Shown piece by piece: positions 1 through 12,905 of a stretch of 64,000 bases of DNA. Origin of the DNA: Xanthobacteraceae bacterium (lineage in GTDB: Bacteria > Pseudomonadota > Alphaproteobacteria > Rhizobiales > Xanthobacteraceae); the NCBI GenBank assembly GCA_030041005.1, contig JASHOR010000041.1, positions 62,001 through 126,000 of the forward strand. Direction: 5' to 3'. The notes beneath the pieces were generated by a model, which saw only the letters and a list, made by a program, of their open reading frames with translations, ran no database searches and was not told where the DNA came from. Position numbers and translations under genes: made by a program. Numbering within the stretch: the stretch's first letter is position 1; each line of letters begins with the position of its first letter.

Positions 1-5630
<5,630 letters not shown>

Positions 5631-7573: not shown

Positions 7574-8725
7574 TCAGCCCGCGCGACGTTCGCCGCCGGG
7601 TTCGCCTTGCGGAAACAGCCGATCGGAATCCGCGACGTAACGGGCGGCGCTGTCGTGCAATTTGGCGTTGTTGATTTCGCGCAGCGCTGCGTCCGCCTCG
7701 CCATAGAGGAACGGCAGGAAGGCATAACGGCGGCCGCGGGTCACCGGCGTGACTTGGTGCAAAGCCCCACAGGAAAATACGATGGCGCCGCCGTGCGGCG
7801 CGCGATAGCTGCGCCGGCCGAACTCGGGCAGGATGAGATCGCCGCCCTCGTAATCCTTGTTCAAATTGATGGAGACGGCGAAGCGGCGGTGCTGCGCGCC
7901 GATATTGACGTTGTCGCGATGGCGATAGAAATGACCGCCGACCGCGCTGTCGTAGCAGGCGACGATGTAGCGGTCCATGCGCGTGGCCTGAAACTGAAAA
8001 AATTGCTCGATGGCCGGCAGCAGGCGGCGGACGATCCGACTGCGGATCGCTTCGCGAAGCCCGGGATGGGCGACGACAAGATCGCTGCGGCGTTTCACCC
8101 GATGGTCGACCATTTTCGTGGTCTTGCCGTCGACGTCGAACAGAAACCCCGATTCCTTGCCGCCGAGCTTTTCGTAGAACTCGACCAGCACATCGCACAG
8201 CGGGAAATCGAAAATGCGCGGCACGATCAGCACCGGAGCGCTGAGCGGGACGCCGGCGGAATCGTCCACGCAGGGCAGCCCCTGCAGCACGTCGCGCACC
8301 GCCTGCGCGTGCCCGCCGGGGTGGTTCCAGGGAATATTGGCAATCGTGCGCAGCATCGGATCGAGCACGATCGTGCGCGGCATCTCGGCGGCGCCGTAGC
8401 GGCGGCTGAGGGCGCCGTCATGGTCGACGATGAACGAAACGGATGCGCAAGAACGTTCGAGAAAGGGCAGCGGATCGTGCGGCAGCGCGGTCAGCACGCC
8501 GTAGAACACCAGCCGGTCCTCGTCGAACAGGCCGGGGTCCTGCAGCAGCAGGGCCAGCTCTTCGCCAACGCGAGCGCTGGCGGGCGAGCCCAGAAAGCTG
8601 AGCACGATCCAGCGCCCTGCGGCGACCTGCAGGTTGAAGGCGCCGCCGGCAAGAAGCGGCGCGCTGAACCACGGCGCCGGATCGCCGAGAATGATTTCGC
8701 CGTTGCCGCAAACGCTTGCTTCCAT
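7574..8725 (-). CDS. Fusion of a cysteine-less peroxiredoxin-like domain and a 2OG-Fe(II) oxygenase
   Basis: About 383 residues. The N-terminal half (ILGDPAPWFSAPLL ... VLSFLGS ... SFIVDHDGALSRRYG ... TIVLDP) follows the peroxiredoxin/AhpC fold, but where PxxxTxxC is expected it reads GSPASARVGEE, so the peroxidatic Cys is missing. The C-terminal half is a prolyl-4-hydroxylase-type oxygenase with HRD in HFYRHRDN, a distal His in GALHQVTP and an Arg in RGRRYAF: the full 2-His-1-carboxylate iron site plus a 2-oxoglutarate ligand. Start chosen at the ATG at 8725 behind GCGAGGA; an ATG at 8779 would add 18 residues without a clear ribosome site. It faces the TPR/ATP-grasp gene across about 135 bp, suggesting joint control. 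Substrate unknown; a peptide or protein side chain is plausible. Confidence 0.85.
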   Translation of the reverse strand: MEASVCGNGEIILGDPAPWFSAPLLAGGAFNLQVAAGRWIVLSFLGSPASARVGEELALLLQDPGLFDEDRLVFYGVLTALPHDPLPFLERSCASVSFIVDHDGALSRRYGAAEMPRTIVLDPMLRTIANIPWNHPGGHAQAVRDVLQGLPCVDDSAGVPLSAPVLIVPRIFDFPLCDVLVEFYEKLGGKESGFLFDVDGKTTKMVDHRVKRRSDLVVAHPGLREAIRSRIVRRLLPAIEQFFQFQATRMDRYIVACYDSAVGGHFYRHRDNVNIGAQHRRFAVSINLNKDYEGGDLILPEFGRRSYRAPHGGAIVFSCGALHQVTPVTRGRRYAFLPFLYGEADAALREINNAKLHDSAARYVADSDRLFPQGEPGGERRAG

Positions 8726-8859
8726 GGCGGACAAATCCTCGCCCGGCACGCGCCAGTCGCCGCCGGTCCCCGGCCGCATGATGTGGTTTTCATGGTAAAT
8801 TTTGCTCTAATCCCATCCCGCCGGGTGATTCGGACCCGCAAAAAGGGCGGCGACCGGCC

Positions 8860-10341
8860 GTGCACCAATCCTTGCAGCGCAGGCCGCGAAGCGCGCGCAT
8901 CGCGGAACTCGATCGCGTGCTGGCGCGGCGGCCCGAGGCGATCGAGGCGCGGCGCGAGCGCGCCGGCCTCTTGCGCGAGCAGGGATCGTTCGAAGCGGCC
9001 AAGCGCGACTACCTTGAACTCCTCCGCCGCGCGCCGAACGACTTCGGCGCGCTCAACGATTTCGGCGCGCTGGTCCTCAAGGCCGGATATCGAAGCGCCG
9101 CACGCTCGCTGTTCGGCGAAGCGGTCAGGCGCCATCCGGACAATCCGATGGGGCATGTCAATCTTGCCAATCTGTTGCTGCTGACCGACGAACCGGACGG
9201 CGCGCGCACACATTTCGAAACCGCCTTGCGCCTCGACCCCGGCCACATTCACGCCCATCGCGGATTGGCAAATCTGTTGGCGGCGCTCGGCGATGCCGAT
9301 GGCGCGCGCCGCCACCGCGACATCGGCTTCAAGACCGACTTCCTGACCGCATTGCCTTATTGCGGCGATCGCGAGCCGGTTCGCGTCCTGCTTCTGGTCT
9401 CCGCCGCCGGGGGCAACATCCCGACCGAGCTTCTGCTCGATGAGACCATCTTCCACACCACCGTTCTCGTGAGCGAATATTACGACGGCAAAATTCCGCT
9501 GCCCGCGCACGACGTGATTTTCAACAGCATCGGCGATGCCGATATCTGCGGCGAAGGTTTGCAAGGAGCGCGGAGATTGCTCGCACGCGCGTCGCGTCCG
9601 ATCGTCAATGATCCCGTTGCGGTGGGCAAATCCGGCCGCGCCGCCAATATCGAGCGGCTGCGCGGCGTGGCGGGCGTCATTGTCCCGCGGATGGCCAAAT
9701 TGCCGCGCAGCGCGCTCGCAGACTCCTGCCGTGCCGGCGCGGCCGTTGCCGACAACGATTTTTCCTTTCCGGTTCTGGCGCGTGCGCCCGGCTTTCACAC
9801 CGGACATCATTTCGTCCGCGCCGAGACGGCGGACGAATTGGCCGCGGCGGTTGGAAAATTTCCAGGCGACGAGGTGTGGCTGATCGAACCGCTCGACGCG
9901 CGGGACGGGGAGGGTTTCTATCGCAAGTATCGCGTGATGATTGTCGATCGGAAGCTTTATCCCCTGCACCTGGCGATCTCGCGCAACTGGAAGGTTCACT
10001 ATTTCACCTCCGACATGGCCGGTTCGGCCGACAATCGCGCCAAAGAGCTGCCGTTCCTTGACGACATGGCTAGCGCGATCGGCCGGCGCGGCATTGCCGC
10101 GCTTGAGCGGATCGCCGCCATGCTCGACCTCGATTACGGCGGCATCGATTTCGCCGTGAACGCGCGCGGCGATATTCTATTTTTCGAAGCCAATGCAACG
10201 ATGGTGCTTGCCCCGCCGTTGCGGGAGGAGAAATGGGCCTACCGCCGGCCGGCATTCGACAATGTGCTGGCGGCGGTTCGCGCCATGCTGATGGCGCGGG
10301 CGGCGGCCGGCGGCCGTCCGGCCGCCGCGGCCGCTCAGTAG
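8860..10341 (+). CDS. TPR / ATP-grasp fusion protein
   Basis: 493 residues from a GTG start behind AAAAGGGCGG. Residues about 10-150 are four TPR-like repeats (LRRAPNDFGALNDFGALV, AVRRHPDNPMGHVNLANL, ALRLDPGHIHAHRGLANL). Residues about 165-490 look like a glutathione-synthetase/RimK-type ATP-grasp ligase: FYRKYRVMIVDRKLYPLHLA in the lysine-strand region and the metal-site segment YGGIDFAVNARGDILFFEAN, ending in the ExN triad. ATP-grasp enzymes join a carboxylate to an amine or thiol through an acyl phosphate. The TPR half would recruit a partner. The stop overlaps the stop of the convergent TonB receptor by 7 bp. Function unknown; with the divergent oxygenase it looks like a two-enzyme modification cassette (inference). 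Confidence 0.85.
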   Translation: MHQSLQRRPRSARIAELDRVLARRPEAIEARRERAGLLREQGSFEAAKRDYLELLRRAPNDFGALNDFGALVLKAGYRSAARSLFGEAVRRHPDNPMGHVNLANLLLLTDEPDGARTHFETALRLDPGHIHAHRGLANLLAALGDADGARRHRDIGFKTDFLTALPYCGDREPVRVLLLVSAAGGNIPTELLLDETIFHTTVLVSEYYDGKIPLPAHDVIFNSIGDADICGEGLQGARRLLARASRPIVNDPVAVGKSGRAANIERLRGVAGVIVPRMAKLPRSALADSCRAGAAVADNDFSFPVLARAPGFHTGHHFVRAETADELAAAVGKFPGDEVWLIEPLDARDGEGFYRKYRVMIVDRKLYPLHLAISRNWKVHYFTSDMAGSADNRAKELPFLDDMASAIGRRGIAALERIAAMLDLDYGGIDFAVNARGDILFFEANATMVLAPPLREEKWAYRRPAFDNVLAAVRAMLMARAAAGGRPAAAAAQ

Positions 10342-12737
10342 TGCAGGCTCGCCTTCACATAATAGGTGCGAGGCTCGCCGACAAAGCCGCCGGCGCTCTC
10401 GGCGATGGTGAAATACTCGACATTGGCGATGTTTTTGATGCCGATCTGGGCGTCCCACTGCTTCGCATAATAGCCGAACATCGCGTCGATCACGGTTGAA
10501 TCCGGAATCCACGAGGTATTGCCGGTGTTGGCGTAGGTCTTGCTGTTGTAGGAGACGCCGCCGCCGACGCGGAAGCCGTGAATGCCGTTGATGGCGAAAT
10601 CGTAGGTCGACCAAAGATTGAAGATGTAGCGCGGCACGCCGACAGGCACATTGCCGACCTGCGAGGGTGTCAGCGGCACCTCGGTGAGCACCGCATGCTG
10701 CGCGATCGCGTTGGCCAACACCTTCCACTGCGGCGTGATCGCAAGCTGCAGGTCGGCGTCCACGCCGCGCGAATCCTGCGCGTTGAAGGCGATGGTGTCC
10801 GTCGTCGTGTTTTCGGTGAACACGTTGGTGCGGAAGATTTCGAACGCCGCCGGCGTGAAAACGAAACGGCCGTCGGGCGATGAGAACTTCACGCCGGCTT
10901 CGTATTCGAGGCCGGACTCAGGAGCGTAGATTCCCTCTTGCGTCGTCTCCGAGTTGAAGTTGGTCAGATAACTCTTGGAGACGCCGGCGAACGGCGCCAC
11001 GCCGGGAAGGATTTTGTAGAGCGTGCCGACGCTCCAACTGGTGGGCGTGTCGAGTTCGGTCTCGGTCATTCCCGGTTCGAGCGGAGTGCCCTGGGCCGTG
11101 ATCCGGCCCGGAACGTAGGCCAGGGGAGTTAATTCTTCGAACCAGTGCTCTTGACGGATGCCGAGGCGCACCTTCCATTGATCGGTTACGTCGATCTGAT
11201 CGGTGGCGTAGGCGCTCAGATAGAGGGCGCGCAGGTCGTCCTCCATGCCGCTGAGGGAGGCCGTGCGCTCGAAGACAAGGCCGTTGGTCGAGGTTTCCGG
11301 AATCACCGGCGCGAAGATGTTCGGGATGTTCTGCAGCGCGGCGGTGGCGCGATTGTCGTCGATGCTGTCCCATTCGACCTGGGCACCGGTCAGCAGCGTG
11401 TGGCCGATGCTGCCGGTGTGGAATTTCCAGATCGGCTCGAACTGATAGGTCATATCGTAGTCGTTGTCGGTCTGCTCGCGTAATTGCCGGTTGGTCAGCG
11501 CCCACTCGCCGTTCACGAGCGCGATGGTGCCGCCGGAATTGCGCAGGATATCGACGTCGCGATGCATGAAGGAGAGGCGGTTGTTGACGGTCAGATAGTC
11601 CGCGATCCACCAGGAATCCGTCAGCGTCGGCCGCTCGATATCCTGGTTGCCGTAGTTGAACGGGGTCGAATATTTGGCGGTGTTCGGCACGCTCGTCAGC
11701 GGCGTGCCGCCGCTGCCCGTGCCGTTGAAGTAGAGGATGCCGTAGCTGTCGGGCGTTTGTTCGATGTGCCGCAGATCGAGCGCGAACGTGGTGATGTGAT
11801 TGTCGTGAATCCAGCTCCACTCGGGACGGATTTCGTAGTCCGCGCTCTTGAGATCGCGGAATCCGTCAGACTGCTGCAGCAATCCGTCGACGCGATAGGT
11901 CAGCCCCGGAACGGTGGTGGGTCCGGTGGCGTAAATGCTCGTCGTCCACGAGCCGAACGAACCGATCTGCTGGCTGATGCCGTAGCCGGGGATATCGGAC
12001 GGCAGGAAATGGATGATGTCGATGGTGCCGCCGGGGGTGCTGCTGCCGAACAGCGCGGAGCCCGGCCCTTTGAGCACCTGGATGCTTTGCACGCCATTCA
12101 TCGAGTGGGGGAACCCGTTGAACTGGTCGCCGTCCGGAAAACCGTCAGTGAAGATGCGGGCATCCATGCCGCGGATGGTGAAGCGGTCGAAGAAGCCGTA
12201 GCTCGACGAGCCGCCGAGATTGATGCCGCTCACGTCGTGAACAGCATCGGCGAGACTGGTGCCGCCCTGCTGGCTCACCACGGCGCGCGGCACGACCACG
12301 ACGCTTTGCGGCAGGTCCGCAAGCTTGGTACCGGTCTTGTCCAGCGCCGGCGCCTGCTGCAGCGGCGCCTGGGCGGTCGCCGTTGCGGATGATGGCGCGG
12401 CTGTCGTCGGTGCGGCAGCCACCGCGGTCGCGGCGCCGCGTGCCGCCGCGCGGCGGCGGTGCCGGACTGGCCGCGGTTTCGGCTTCGGCGCCGACACGAC
12501 GATTTCGGGAACGGGTGTCGCCGCCGATGGCGCGGGAGAAACGGTGGGGGCGCTCTGCGGCGTCGAGGGCGGCGCCGGGGAGGCGGCCGGAGCGTTCTGC
12601 TGTTGTGCAAACGCCGCCGGAACGATGACGATGGCAACAGCGACTGCAAACGCGGGGATTGCAGTGTCCGTGCAGAACCGGCGCCGCCAGAAGCGGCGAG
12701 GACGCCGCGCATTCGATTCGAGGACTGGGTTGGACAC
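10335..12737 (-). CDS. TonB-dependent siderophore receptor
   Basis: Outer-membrane ligand-gated porin for ferric siderophores. From the GTG at 12737 it is about 800 residues. An Arg-rich n-region and a hydrophobic stretch ending VPAAFA give a signal peptide, followed by about 90 residues rich in Pro and Ala with an EIVVSAPKPKPRP segment. The plug has LADLPQSVVVVPR, SSYGFFDRFTIRGMDA and IQVLKGPGSALFGSSTPGG, and a 22-strand-type barrel ends in the aromatic KASLHY. The open frame continues 56 codons upstream to 12905, but that extension is AT-rich and precedes the signal peptide, so I reject it. No strong ribosome site is seen before the GTG. The ligand cannot be told from sequence. Confidence 0.9.
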   Translation of the reverse strand: MSNPVLESNARRPRRFWRRRFCTDTAIPAFAVAVAIVIVPAAFAQQQNAPAASPAPPSTPQSAPTVSPAPSAATPVPEIVVSAPKPKPRPVRHRRRAAARGAATAVAAAPTTAAPSSATATAQAPLQQAPALDKTGTKLADLPQSVVVVPRAVVSQQGGTSLADAVHDVSGINLGGSSSYGFFDRFTIRGMDARIFTDGFPDGDQFNGFPHSMNGVQSIQVLKGPGSALFGSSTPGGTIDIIHFLPSDIPGYGISQQIGSFGSWTTSIYATGPTTVPGLTYRVDGLLQQSDGFRDLKSADYEIRPEWSWIHDNHITTFALDLRHIEQTPDSYGILYFNGTGSGGTPLTSVPNTAKYSTPFNYGNQDIERPTLTDSWWIADYLTVNNRLSFMHRDVDILRNSGGTIALVNGEWALTNRQLREQTDNDYDMTYQFEPIWKFHTGSIGHTLLTGAQVEWDSIDDNRATAALQNIPNIFAPVIPETSTNGLVFERTASLSGMEDDLRALYLSAYATDQIDVTDQWKVRLGIRQEHWFEELTPLAYVPGRITAQGTPLEPGMTETELDTPTSWSVGTLYKILPGVAPFAGVSKSYLTNFNSETTQEGIYAPESGLEYEAGVKFSSPDGRFVFTPAAFEIFRTNVFTENTTTDTIAFNAQDSRGVDADLQLAITPQWKVLANAIAQHAVLTEVPLTPSQVGNVPVGVPRYIFNLWSTYDFAINGIHGFRVGGGVSYNSKTYANTGNTSWIPDSTVIDAMFGYYAKQWDAQIGIKNIANVEYFTIAESAGGFVGEPRTYYVKASLHY

Positions 12738-12905
12738 TTTAGAACCATGAAAAAGAGAAGCGATATCAATAGGTTGTTCACATAAAAGTATAATGCGCAA
12801 GAAAAAACAGTTATTGCACAGTAAAAAGGAATTAAAATAATTCAAATCTAGGACGGTGTAGTCTTTTTTATTGGTTCCAGACAATTCTACTTTGTCAGGA
12901 AACAC
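12738..12905 (-). promoter_or_regulatory. AT-rich leader/promoter of the TonB receptor
   Basis: This stretch is conspicuously AT-rich against GC-rich neighbours and lies just upstream of the receptor start. It includes GACAA and TTGTC arms at 12892-12908 around a short loop. An iron-responsive operator (Fur, Irr or RirA) would be expected here, but I could not recognise a clear consensus box. Confidence 0.4.

Follow-up and report, generated by a model that had tools for sequence, protein, structure and literature searches.

A divergent gene pair encoding a redoxin-like oxygenase and a TPR-ATP-grasp protein in a Xanthobacteraceae bacterium: a candidate for flagellar protein modification

RimK and LysX/ArgX are ligases that use ATP to activate a carboxylate, which they couple to an amine on or with a protein; 2-oxoglutarate (2OG) oxygenases hydroxylate. 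In Caulobacter, the N-terminal half of FlmG, made of tetratricopeptide repeats (TPR), is described as binding flagellins and steering the catalytic half (PMC7591256). In Shewanella, the ATP-grasp protein SfmE (SO_3265), from a flagellin modification operon, is described as needed for full flagellin modification, and its loss alters flagellin migration (PMC3765264). Here we analyse a gene pair from a 64,000-nucleotide (nt) stretch of Xanthobacteraceae bacterium DNA (assembly GCA_030041005.1, contig JASHOR010000041.1, positions 62,001 to 126,000; G000:C83:62001-126000 in our numbering), which we call the window and in which the positions below are counted. Gene A (7574..8725, minus strand, 383 amino acids (aa)) encodes a redoxin-like domain without a peroxidatic cysteine fused to a 2OG-Fe(II) oxygenase. 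Gene B (8860..10341, plus strand, 493 aa, GTG start codon) encodes a predicted TPR and ATP-grasp ligase. Both genes are open and divergent, as a first-pass annotation of this DNA had reported; the flagellar context of the B family and a CtrA-like box between the two genes lay beyond what that annotation could show.

B resembles FlmG in having a TPR N-terminal half in front of a catalytic C-terminal half, FlmG being likewise alphaproteobacterial and under cell-cycle control; the catalytic half of FlmG is a GT-B glycosyltransferase whereas that of B is ATP-grasp, and flagellin binding by B would be by analogy (PMC7591256). SfmE is an ATP-grasp protein like B, of the ATPgrasp_4 type according to its paper, and is likened to B by description only (PMC3765264). 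With RimK, LysX and ArgX, B shares the fold of its C-terminal half (Z 18.8-20.4), the Mg-site D/E/N and relatives that act on proteins, but it differs by the TPR in front, an Arg for the ATP-site Lys and an identity of 13-16%. Graspetide ligases are ATP-grasp enzymes too, and some graspetide loci are described with separate TPR genes (PMC8939145); in B, however, the TPR is fused, no precursor peptide lies beside the pair and no graspetide model scored above its cut-off. As for A, its oxygenase half is like the PKHD hydroxylases PiuC/YbiX, to which A adds a redoxin-like domain.

Our literature searches found nothing joining ATP-grasp, flagellin and tetratricopeptide, nothing on a PKHD-type hydroxylase with redoxin or on ATP-grasp with flagellar and pyridoxal terms in Bradyrhizobium, and nothing related to a fused peroxiredoxin-prolyl hydroxylase in alphaproteobacteria; Iyer et al. 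2009, on amidoligases, may already mention the family. Our preferred reading, held tentatively and with somewhat less than even confidence, is that B as a TPR-guided ligase and A as a hydroxylase modify a flagellar protein. It draws on the predicted fold of B, the flagellar genes beside B relatives and the box upstream of A.

Domains and active-site residues of A and B

Many Pfam models call TPR in the N-terminal half of B, and its C-terminal ~330 aa had no Pfam match. This C-terminal half gave weak RimK/CofF/GRASP matches, all under cut-off, and the NCBIfam RimK model, whose cut-off is 143.4, reached 11.4 bits. A structure model computed from 40 alignment rows had a predicted local distance difference test (pLDDT) score of 93.8 and a predicted template modelling (pTM) score of 0.90. 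It predicts a TPR superhelix over residues 10-157 (8887..9330, plus strand), in agreement with the Pfam TPR matches, and a second domain over residues 174-483 (9379..10308, plus strand). By using VIA-align, we found that this second domain superimposes on RimK (7qys) with Z 20.4, a root-mean-square deviation of 3.8 and 264 aligned residues, the next closest folds being ArgX (3vpb, Z 19.4) and LysX (3vpd, Z 18.8), with Ddl-type ligases and glutathione synthetase also among the matches. A sequence-profile search with B likewise put LysX first (E 8.7e-5). As modelled, the C-terminal half of B is a genuine ATP-grasp domain. The TPR half matched the TPRs of O-GlcNAc transferase (Z 18.6) and consensus TPRs (Z 18.2) alike; its TPR likeness is therefore generic.

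ATP-grasp enzymes usually carry a Lys at the ATP site, with Arg in carbamoyl phosphate synthetase. In an hhalign comparison of the B profile with the single E. coli RimK sequence, weak overall (probability 14.8, E 0.0018), the Mg-site residues D430, E443 and N445 of B align with D248, E260 and N262 of RimK, and R308 with K141; the case for ATP-grasp is made more strongly by the fold match of the model. R260, R308, R355, K356, R358, D430 and E443 are invariant in the 40 B rows, N445 is not, and most TPR-less relatives have Asp or Gly at the N445 position. By alignment, Arg (R260, R308) stands in B where an ATP-binding Lys is usual, so that basic ATP-site residues are kept. A lack of ATP-site residues, which the first-pass annotation had named as refuting its proposed modification cassette, is therefore not what the alignment shows, although Arg takes the place of Lys.

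The longest open reading frame (ORF) of A begins at 8779, and homologue N-termini make 8725 the likelier start; residues are numbered from the Met at 8723-8725. Two domains of A exceed their Pfam cut-offs: an AhpC-TSA-like domain (8357..8686, minus strand; PF00578, 29.6 bits, cut-off 26) and a 2OG-FeII_Oxy_3 domain (7709..7963, minus strand; PF13640, 42.3 bits, cut-off 27). In the latter, the complete metal site claimed earlier is borne out, with the H, D and H of HxD...H (H269, D271, H323) and R333 invariant in 10/10 aligned rows. The closest solved oxygenase relative of this half is PiuC (E 2.2e-7), and the PiuC/YbiX equivalog models gave at best 48.4 bits against a cut-off of 143, which was not reached.

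The peroxidatic Cys of peroxiredoxins lies in a C-x-x-E-L motif, from which its position in A was set by eye. Window's A has Val there, in line with the first-pass annotation, and A is therefore ruled out as an active peroxidase in the window's protein. Among the 10 aligned A rows, Cys occurs at this place in 0/9 covering rows (V, A, G, I), and in a more diverse alignment in 1/15 rows (L233), the other A rows having V, A, G, I, L or F. Because of these counts, the loss of the peroxidatic Cys appears to be old and nearly family-wide, though some member may differ, as L233 does. Separately, the A homologue of G056 (L047) was matched as two pieces in different frames and may be broken or misassembled.

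Flagellar genes around B relatives and a CtrA-like box upstream of A

A wide scan of genome contigs with B gave 589 confirmed matches, of which the best 80 were taken as loci; the phyla among these 80 are Pseudomonadota, Acidobacteriota, Eremiobacterota, Nitrospirota, Myxococcota, FCPU426 and others. The ATP-grasp half of B was found in 27/149 genomes of the family (E 0.001) and in 31/397 genomes of the order (E 1e-15). In a 120-row tree, B belongs to a 40-row TPR-ATP-grasp clade (support 100/95); a second TPR type lies outside it, as does a clade of 55 rows that mostly lack TPR (100/100). The first 37 loci (L087-L123) hold B proteins that are 42-75% identical to window's B. Cultured strains with a B of close type include Rhizobium sp. 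BK376, Rhodopila globiformis DSM 161 and Bradyrhizobium sp. S69. Because the gene caller was crude, with B unrecovered in L135, L144, L145, L160, L164 and L318 and A unrecovered in L078, its counts are lower bounds.

The flanks of these loci were searched with E. coli flagellar proteins and, drawn from the loci, with FlbT, FlaF, FlaG and one flagellin. A flagellar gene was found in the examined flanks of 14/80 B-family loci against 0/40 control windows (Fisher p 0.002), a comparison in which the controls are 20 kb windows from Hyphomicrobiales only, the B loci come from many phyla with several of them short, and related loci are not independent. The linkage splits into 6/37 loci (flhA in L094-L097; flgE in L118 and L122) and 8/43 loci. 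In L094, L095 and L097, B starts 1 nt past the end of flhA, and in L096 the two genes are 158 nt apart; the four B proteins are 59-61% identical to window's B. Contexts of B among flagellar genes also make up 3/14 at the order level (L311, L313, L316) and 3/18 in the family (L069, L083, L086).

G000, the genome of the window, carries flagellin genes. Across the order sample, flagellin occurs in 301/397 genomes, including 27/31 with B (p 0.09) and 19/22 with A (p 0.18), neither of which is significant; it occurs in 23/23 genomes with B at E 1e-90 or better (p 0.001), at a cut-off picked afterwards. As an observation apart, flagellin or hook loci of the window's genus, on C69 and C170 of G000 (L302, L303) and in L304 and L305 hold large proteins of 445-855 aa with B-like TPR, which are perhaps FlmG-like enzymes.

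The A/B gap contains a 12-mer, ATGGTAAATTTT, that is invariant in the near relatives of the window (7/7 divergent pairs) and is not found in G331, a genome from another family of the order. It occurs once each in G000, G115, G146 and G097 and 0 times in G076, G002, G049 and G131, and the reversed-sequence control gave 0 in all 8 genomes. In G097, where A stands alone, ATGGTAAATTTT lies upstream of A. On A's strand, the window site reads TTAG-N7-TTTACCAT (8792..8810, minus strand), 66 nt upstream of the start codon of A, and the matching site of G002 reads TTAG-N7-TTAACCAT. For CtrA, the consensus is given as TTAA-N7-TTAAC (PMC7200025).

The pattern TTA[AG]-N7-TT[AT]ACCAT has 6, 6, 6, 6 and 8 matches (32) in five genomes of the window's genus and 0 when reversed. 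By placing the sites that have a called gene beside them, we found that they precede flgB in G000, G002, G097 and G146, lie between flagellin and a divergent gene in G115 and G146, and precede A in four genomes, a lytic-transglycosylase-like gene in four (by eye) and various others. With <=2 mismatches, the box is present upstream of 4/18 further A genes (L069, L232, L233, L236; the count omitted L231, L234, L235, L078, L079 and L082), against 9/1000 random segments (p 4e-5) and 12/668 gene-upstream control segments (p 0.0005); L232 and L233 come from a single genus, and when they are counted once the latter p is 0.005. The A/B gap appears to carry a conserved putative CtrA-like box, of a class that also occurs near flagellar genes.

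Linkage of A and B and the alternative readings

A adjoins B divergently in 6/37 of the best B loci (L087, L089, where A is truncated by the contig end, L090, L091, L092 and L108), all from the window's near relatives. In G331 (L219), A and B are again divergent and are followed by an FkbH-like gene, with identities to the window's proteins of 37% for A, in its oxygenase half, and 46% for B. In G114 (L069), flagellin, B-like, FkbH-like, A, B-like, FlbT and FlaF genes follow each other on one strand. The FkbH-like proteins of these two loci (L069:4717-6864 and L219:11355-13472) are 64% identical and score 218 and 228 bits to TIGR01686. In the family sample, A was counted in 11/149 genomes, B in 27/149 and both in 7/149 (p 0.0006), five of the seven being one genus; A was counted here at E < 1e-60, a cut-off of our choosing, as 89/149 genomes match at E 0.001, mostly by the oxygenase half alone. 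Across the order, 22/397 genomes have A (E 1e-30), 31/397 have B and 3/397 have both (G000, G331, G466).

Several observations weigh against modification of a flagellar protein by the pair. First, no flagellar gene adjoins A/B in the window itself, none was found in 18 A contexts (0/18, L219-L236), the flagellar linkage of the B clade comes from two lineages only, and most flagellar B-family loci fall in the clade that mostly lacks TPR. Neither A nor B is confined to flagellated genomes: of the 397, G266, G294, G340 and G387 have B and no flagellin, and G235, G409 and G510 have A and no flagellin, and G049 has flagellin with both A and B absent. Second, the window box differs from TTAA-N7-TTAACCAT at two places, and the flagellin-side box lies 261-274 nt from flagellin and nearer (38-91 nt) to the divergent gene. 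With <=2 mismatches, the box is absent at the pair of G331 and at the A of G076, and it was found upstream of 0/12 distinct B genes away from A (14 rows, two contigs being there twice). Third, A and B often part: the other 31/37 best B loci have no A in the DNA examined, which was short in several, and 24/29 genomes whose A surroundings were examined have no B near A. At the order level, their co-occurrence in 3/397 genomes, with ~1.7 expected (p 0.24), is not above chance. Finally, a structure model of A from a seven-row alignment, poor because of too few rows, had a pLDDT of 34.9 and was not used, and the substrate that B would ligate is read from gene context.

Several of these points fit a different account, possible and yet on the unlikely side, in which A and B are separate enzymes that are neighbours in one clade, B being a stand-alone ligase of small molecules or proteins without a fixed partner and A a CtrA-regulated hydroxylase of its own. 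The locus counts speak for it, as do the chance-level co-occurrence in the order, the fact that the box goes with A and not with B, G097 and G076, where A and B are both present on different contigs, and G002, where A is alone. However, A is found with ATP-grasp genes in three separate settings (the window's genus, G331 and G114), these genes being of different clades and an FkbH-like partner being common to two of the three settings, and in the family 7/11 A genomes have B against 27/149 overall, the one genus noted above making up most of the seven. The pairing of A with B is not widespread, and a two-gene A+B cassette across bacteria is not borne out by the locus and genome counts; of the cassette proposed in the first-pass annotation, a conserved linkage in some lineages (the six loci, G331 and G114) remains.

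The other alternatives change the target. Modification by B of a non-flagellar or carrier protein, as ArgX and LysX modify LysW, seems improbable to us: ArgX/LysX are the next best folds of B and seven B or A genomes lack flagellin, but the B family is linked to flagellar genes. A role in iron uptake, with A as a PiuC/YbiX-like hydroxylase serving the TonB-dependent receptor beside B, is in our estimate quite improbable. This receptor gene (10335..12905, minus strand; PF00593, 115.7 bits), which we treat as context outside the claimed system, overlaps B by 7 nt, TonB-receptor-like genes also adjoin B in L087, L089, L095 and L108 (by eye), and PiuC is the best solved relative of the oxygenase half. 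Yet A falls far below the PiuC/YbiX cut-off, the receptor is convergent with B and does not adjoin A, no TonB receptor was noticed near A outside the window's genus (by eye, no model search having been made), and the conserved upstream site is CtrA-like. A peptide natural product pathway, of the graspetide-like RiPP (ribosomally synthesized and post-translationally modified peptide) or dipeptide kind, is very improbable. Such clusters are predicted with ATP-grasp or other peptide ligases and oxygenases (PMC2922099), but here the 134-nt A/B gap (8726-8859) wholly contains no ORF of >=20 aa in the ORF listing, the 7-nt overlap and the 74 nt between the end of A and the neighbouring kinase gene give no adjacent precursor ORF, TIGR04187 scores 14 bits against a cut-off of 350, and the flanking genes are a histidine kinase and the TonB receptor, not an exporter or peptidase.

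Thus, of the peptide or protein modification first suggested for the pair, the protein half is supported because RimK and LysX/ArgX, whose folds are nearest to that of B, are protein-acting enzymes, whereas a RiPP-like peptide is disfavoured because the gap holds no such ORF, an absence that the first-pass annotation had also recorded.

Around the pair, the order B, TonB-type receptor and malic enzyme is common to the window, L087, L089 and L108 (by eye), with a receptor type that seems different between window 10335-12905 on one side and L087:5381-7390 and L108:11005-13014 on the other (by eye). The window also holds a hybrid histidine kinase (15-5630, plus strand) whose N-terminal half resembles many tandem near-identical HAMP-type repeats (by eye).

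Proposed activities and partner enzymes of the B family

Under our preferred reading, that the pair modifies a flagellar protein, B is probably an enzyme that links a small molecule to a protein, and A probably one that adds an oxygen atom to a protein, the bacterial flagellum being the likely target from the relatives and the control region. In the order of steps that we infer, the TPR superhelix of B would bind the protein substrate, and its RimK/LysX-like domain would turn a carboxylate into an acyl phosphate at the expense of ATP and then join it to an amine. B would in this way attach an amino acid or an amino-acid-derived amine to a protein, likeliest flagellin or another flagellar protein. 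A would be a PKHD-like Fe(II)/2OG hydroxylase acting on the protein of B or on the same modification, and its redoxin domain, with the catalytic Cys lost, may be retained as a structural or docking module. The target flagellar protein would be one whose synthesis is under CtrA-type control.

Enzymes of amino acid metabolism are found near several B relatives. Compact operons with a pyridoxal phosphate (PLP) decarboxylase, often plus a second PLP enzyme, hold B relatives in L306, L307, L310, L312 and L315, and the B relatives of L085, L086, L311 and L313 are likewise with a PLP decarboxylase (called by model in L085 and L086, by eye in L306, L307, L310-L313 and L315). A PLP decarboxylase is fused to the B relative in L098 and, by eye, in L107. 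A SerC-like phosphoserine transaminase lies near the ATP-grasp gene in 16 loci (L105, L124, L129, L130, L132, L133, L137, L141, L149, L151, L152, L153, L155, L157, L159 and L163; one, L124, checked by model), and L132, L141, L153 and L155 also hold FliS, FliD, FlaG or flagellin. These PLP decarboxylases and SerC-like enzymes would fit the supply of an amine or amino-acid donor. Neither gene lies beside window's A/B pair, and as a constant partner of the window's clade they were rejected, since among the neighbours listed for L087-L123 they occur at L098 and L107 (fused) and at L105 (SerC-like neighbour) alone.

A more specific version is doubtful in our view: a flagellin modification in which the TPR-docked ATP-grasp domain ligates an amino-acid-derived group and the redoxin-scaffolded 2OG oxygenase, with an FkbH-like protein in some species, hydroxylates, the same family working with PLP/SerC amine suppliers across Proteobacteria and beyond.

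The sharper lead is the ATP-grasp family itself, which is wide, unnamed and linked time and again to flagellar genes; its member in the window is fused to TPR and paired with an oxygenase whose gene bears a CtrA-like box. Its ATP-grasp half, which has no Pfam match, spans many phyla and recurs next to flagellar genes and to PLP enzymes. If its members ligate amino-acid groups to flagellin, flagellin modification would have a non-glycosyl class, and this would give a role to a widespread ATP-grasp family that is without one.

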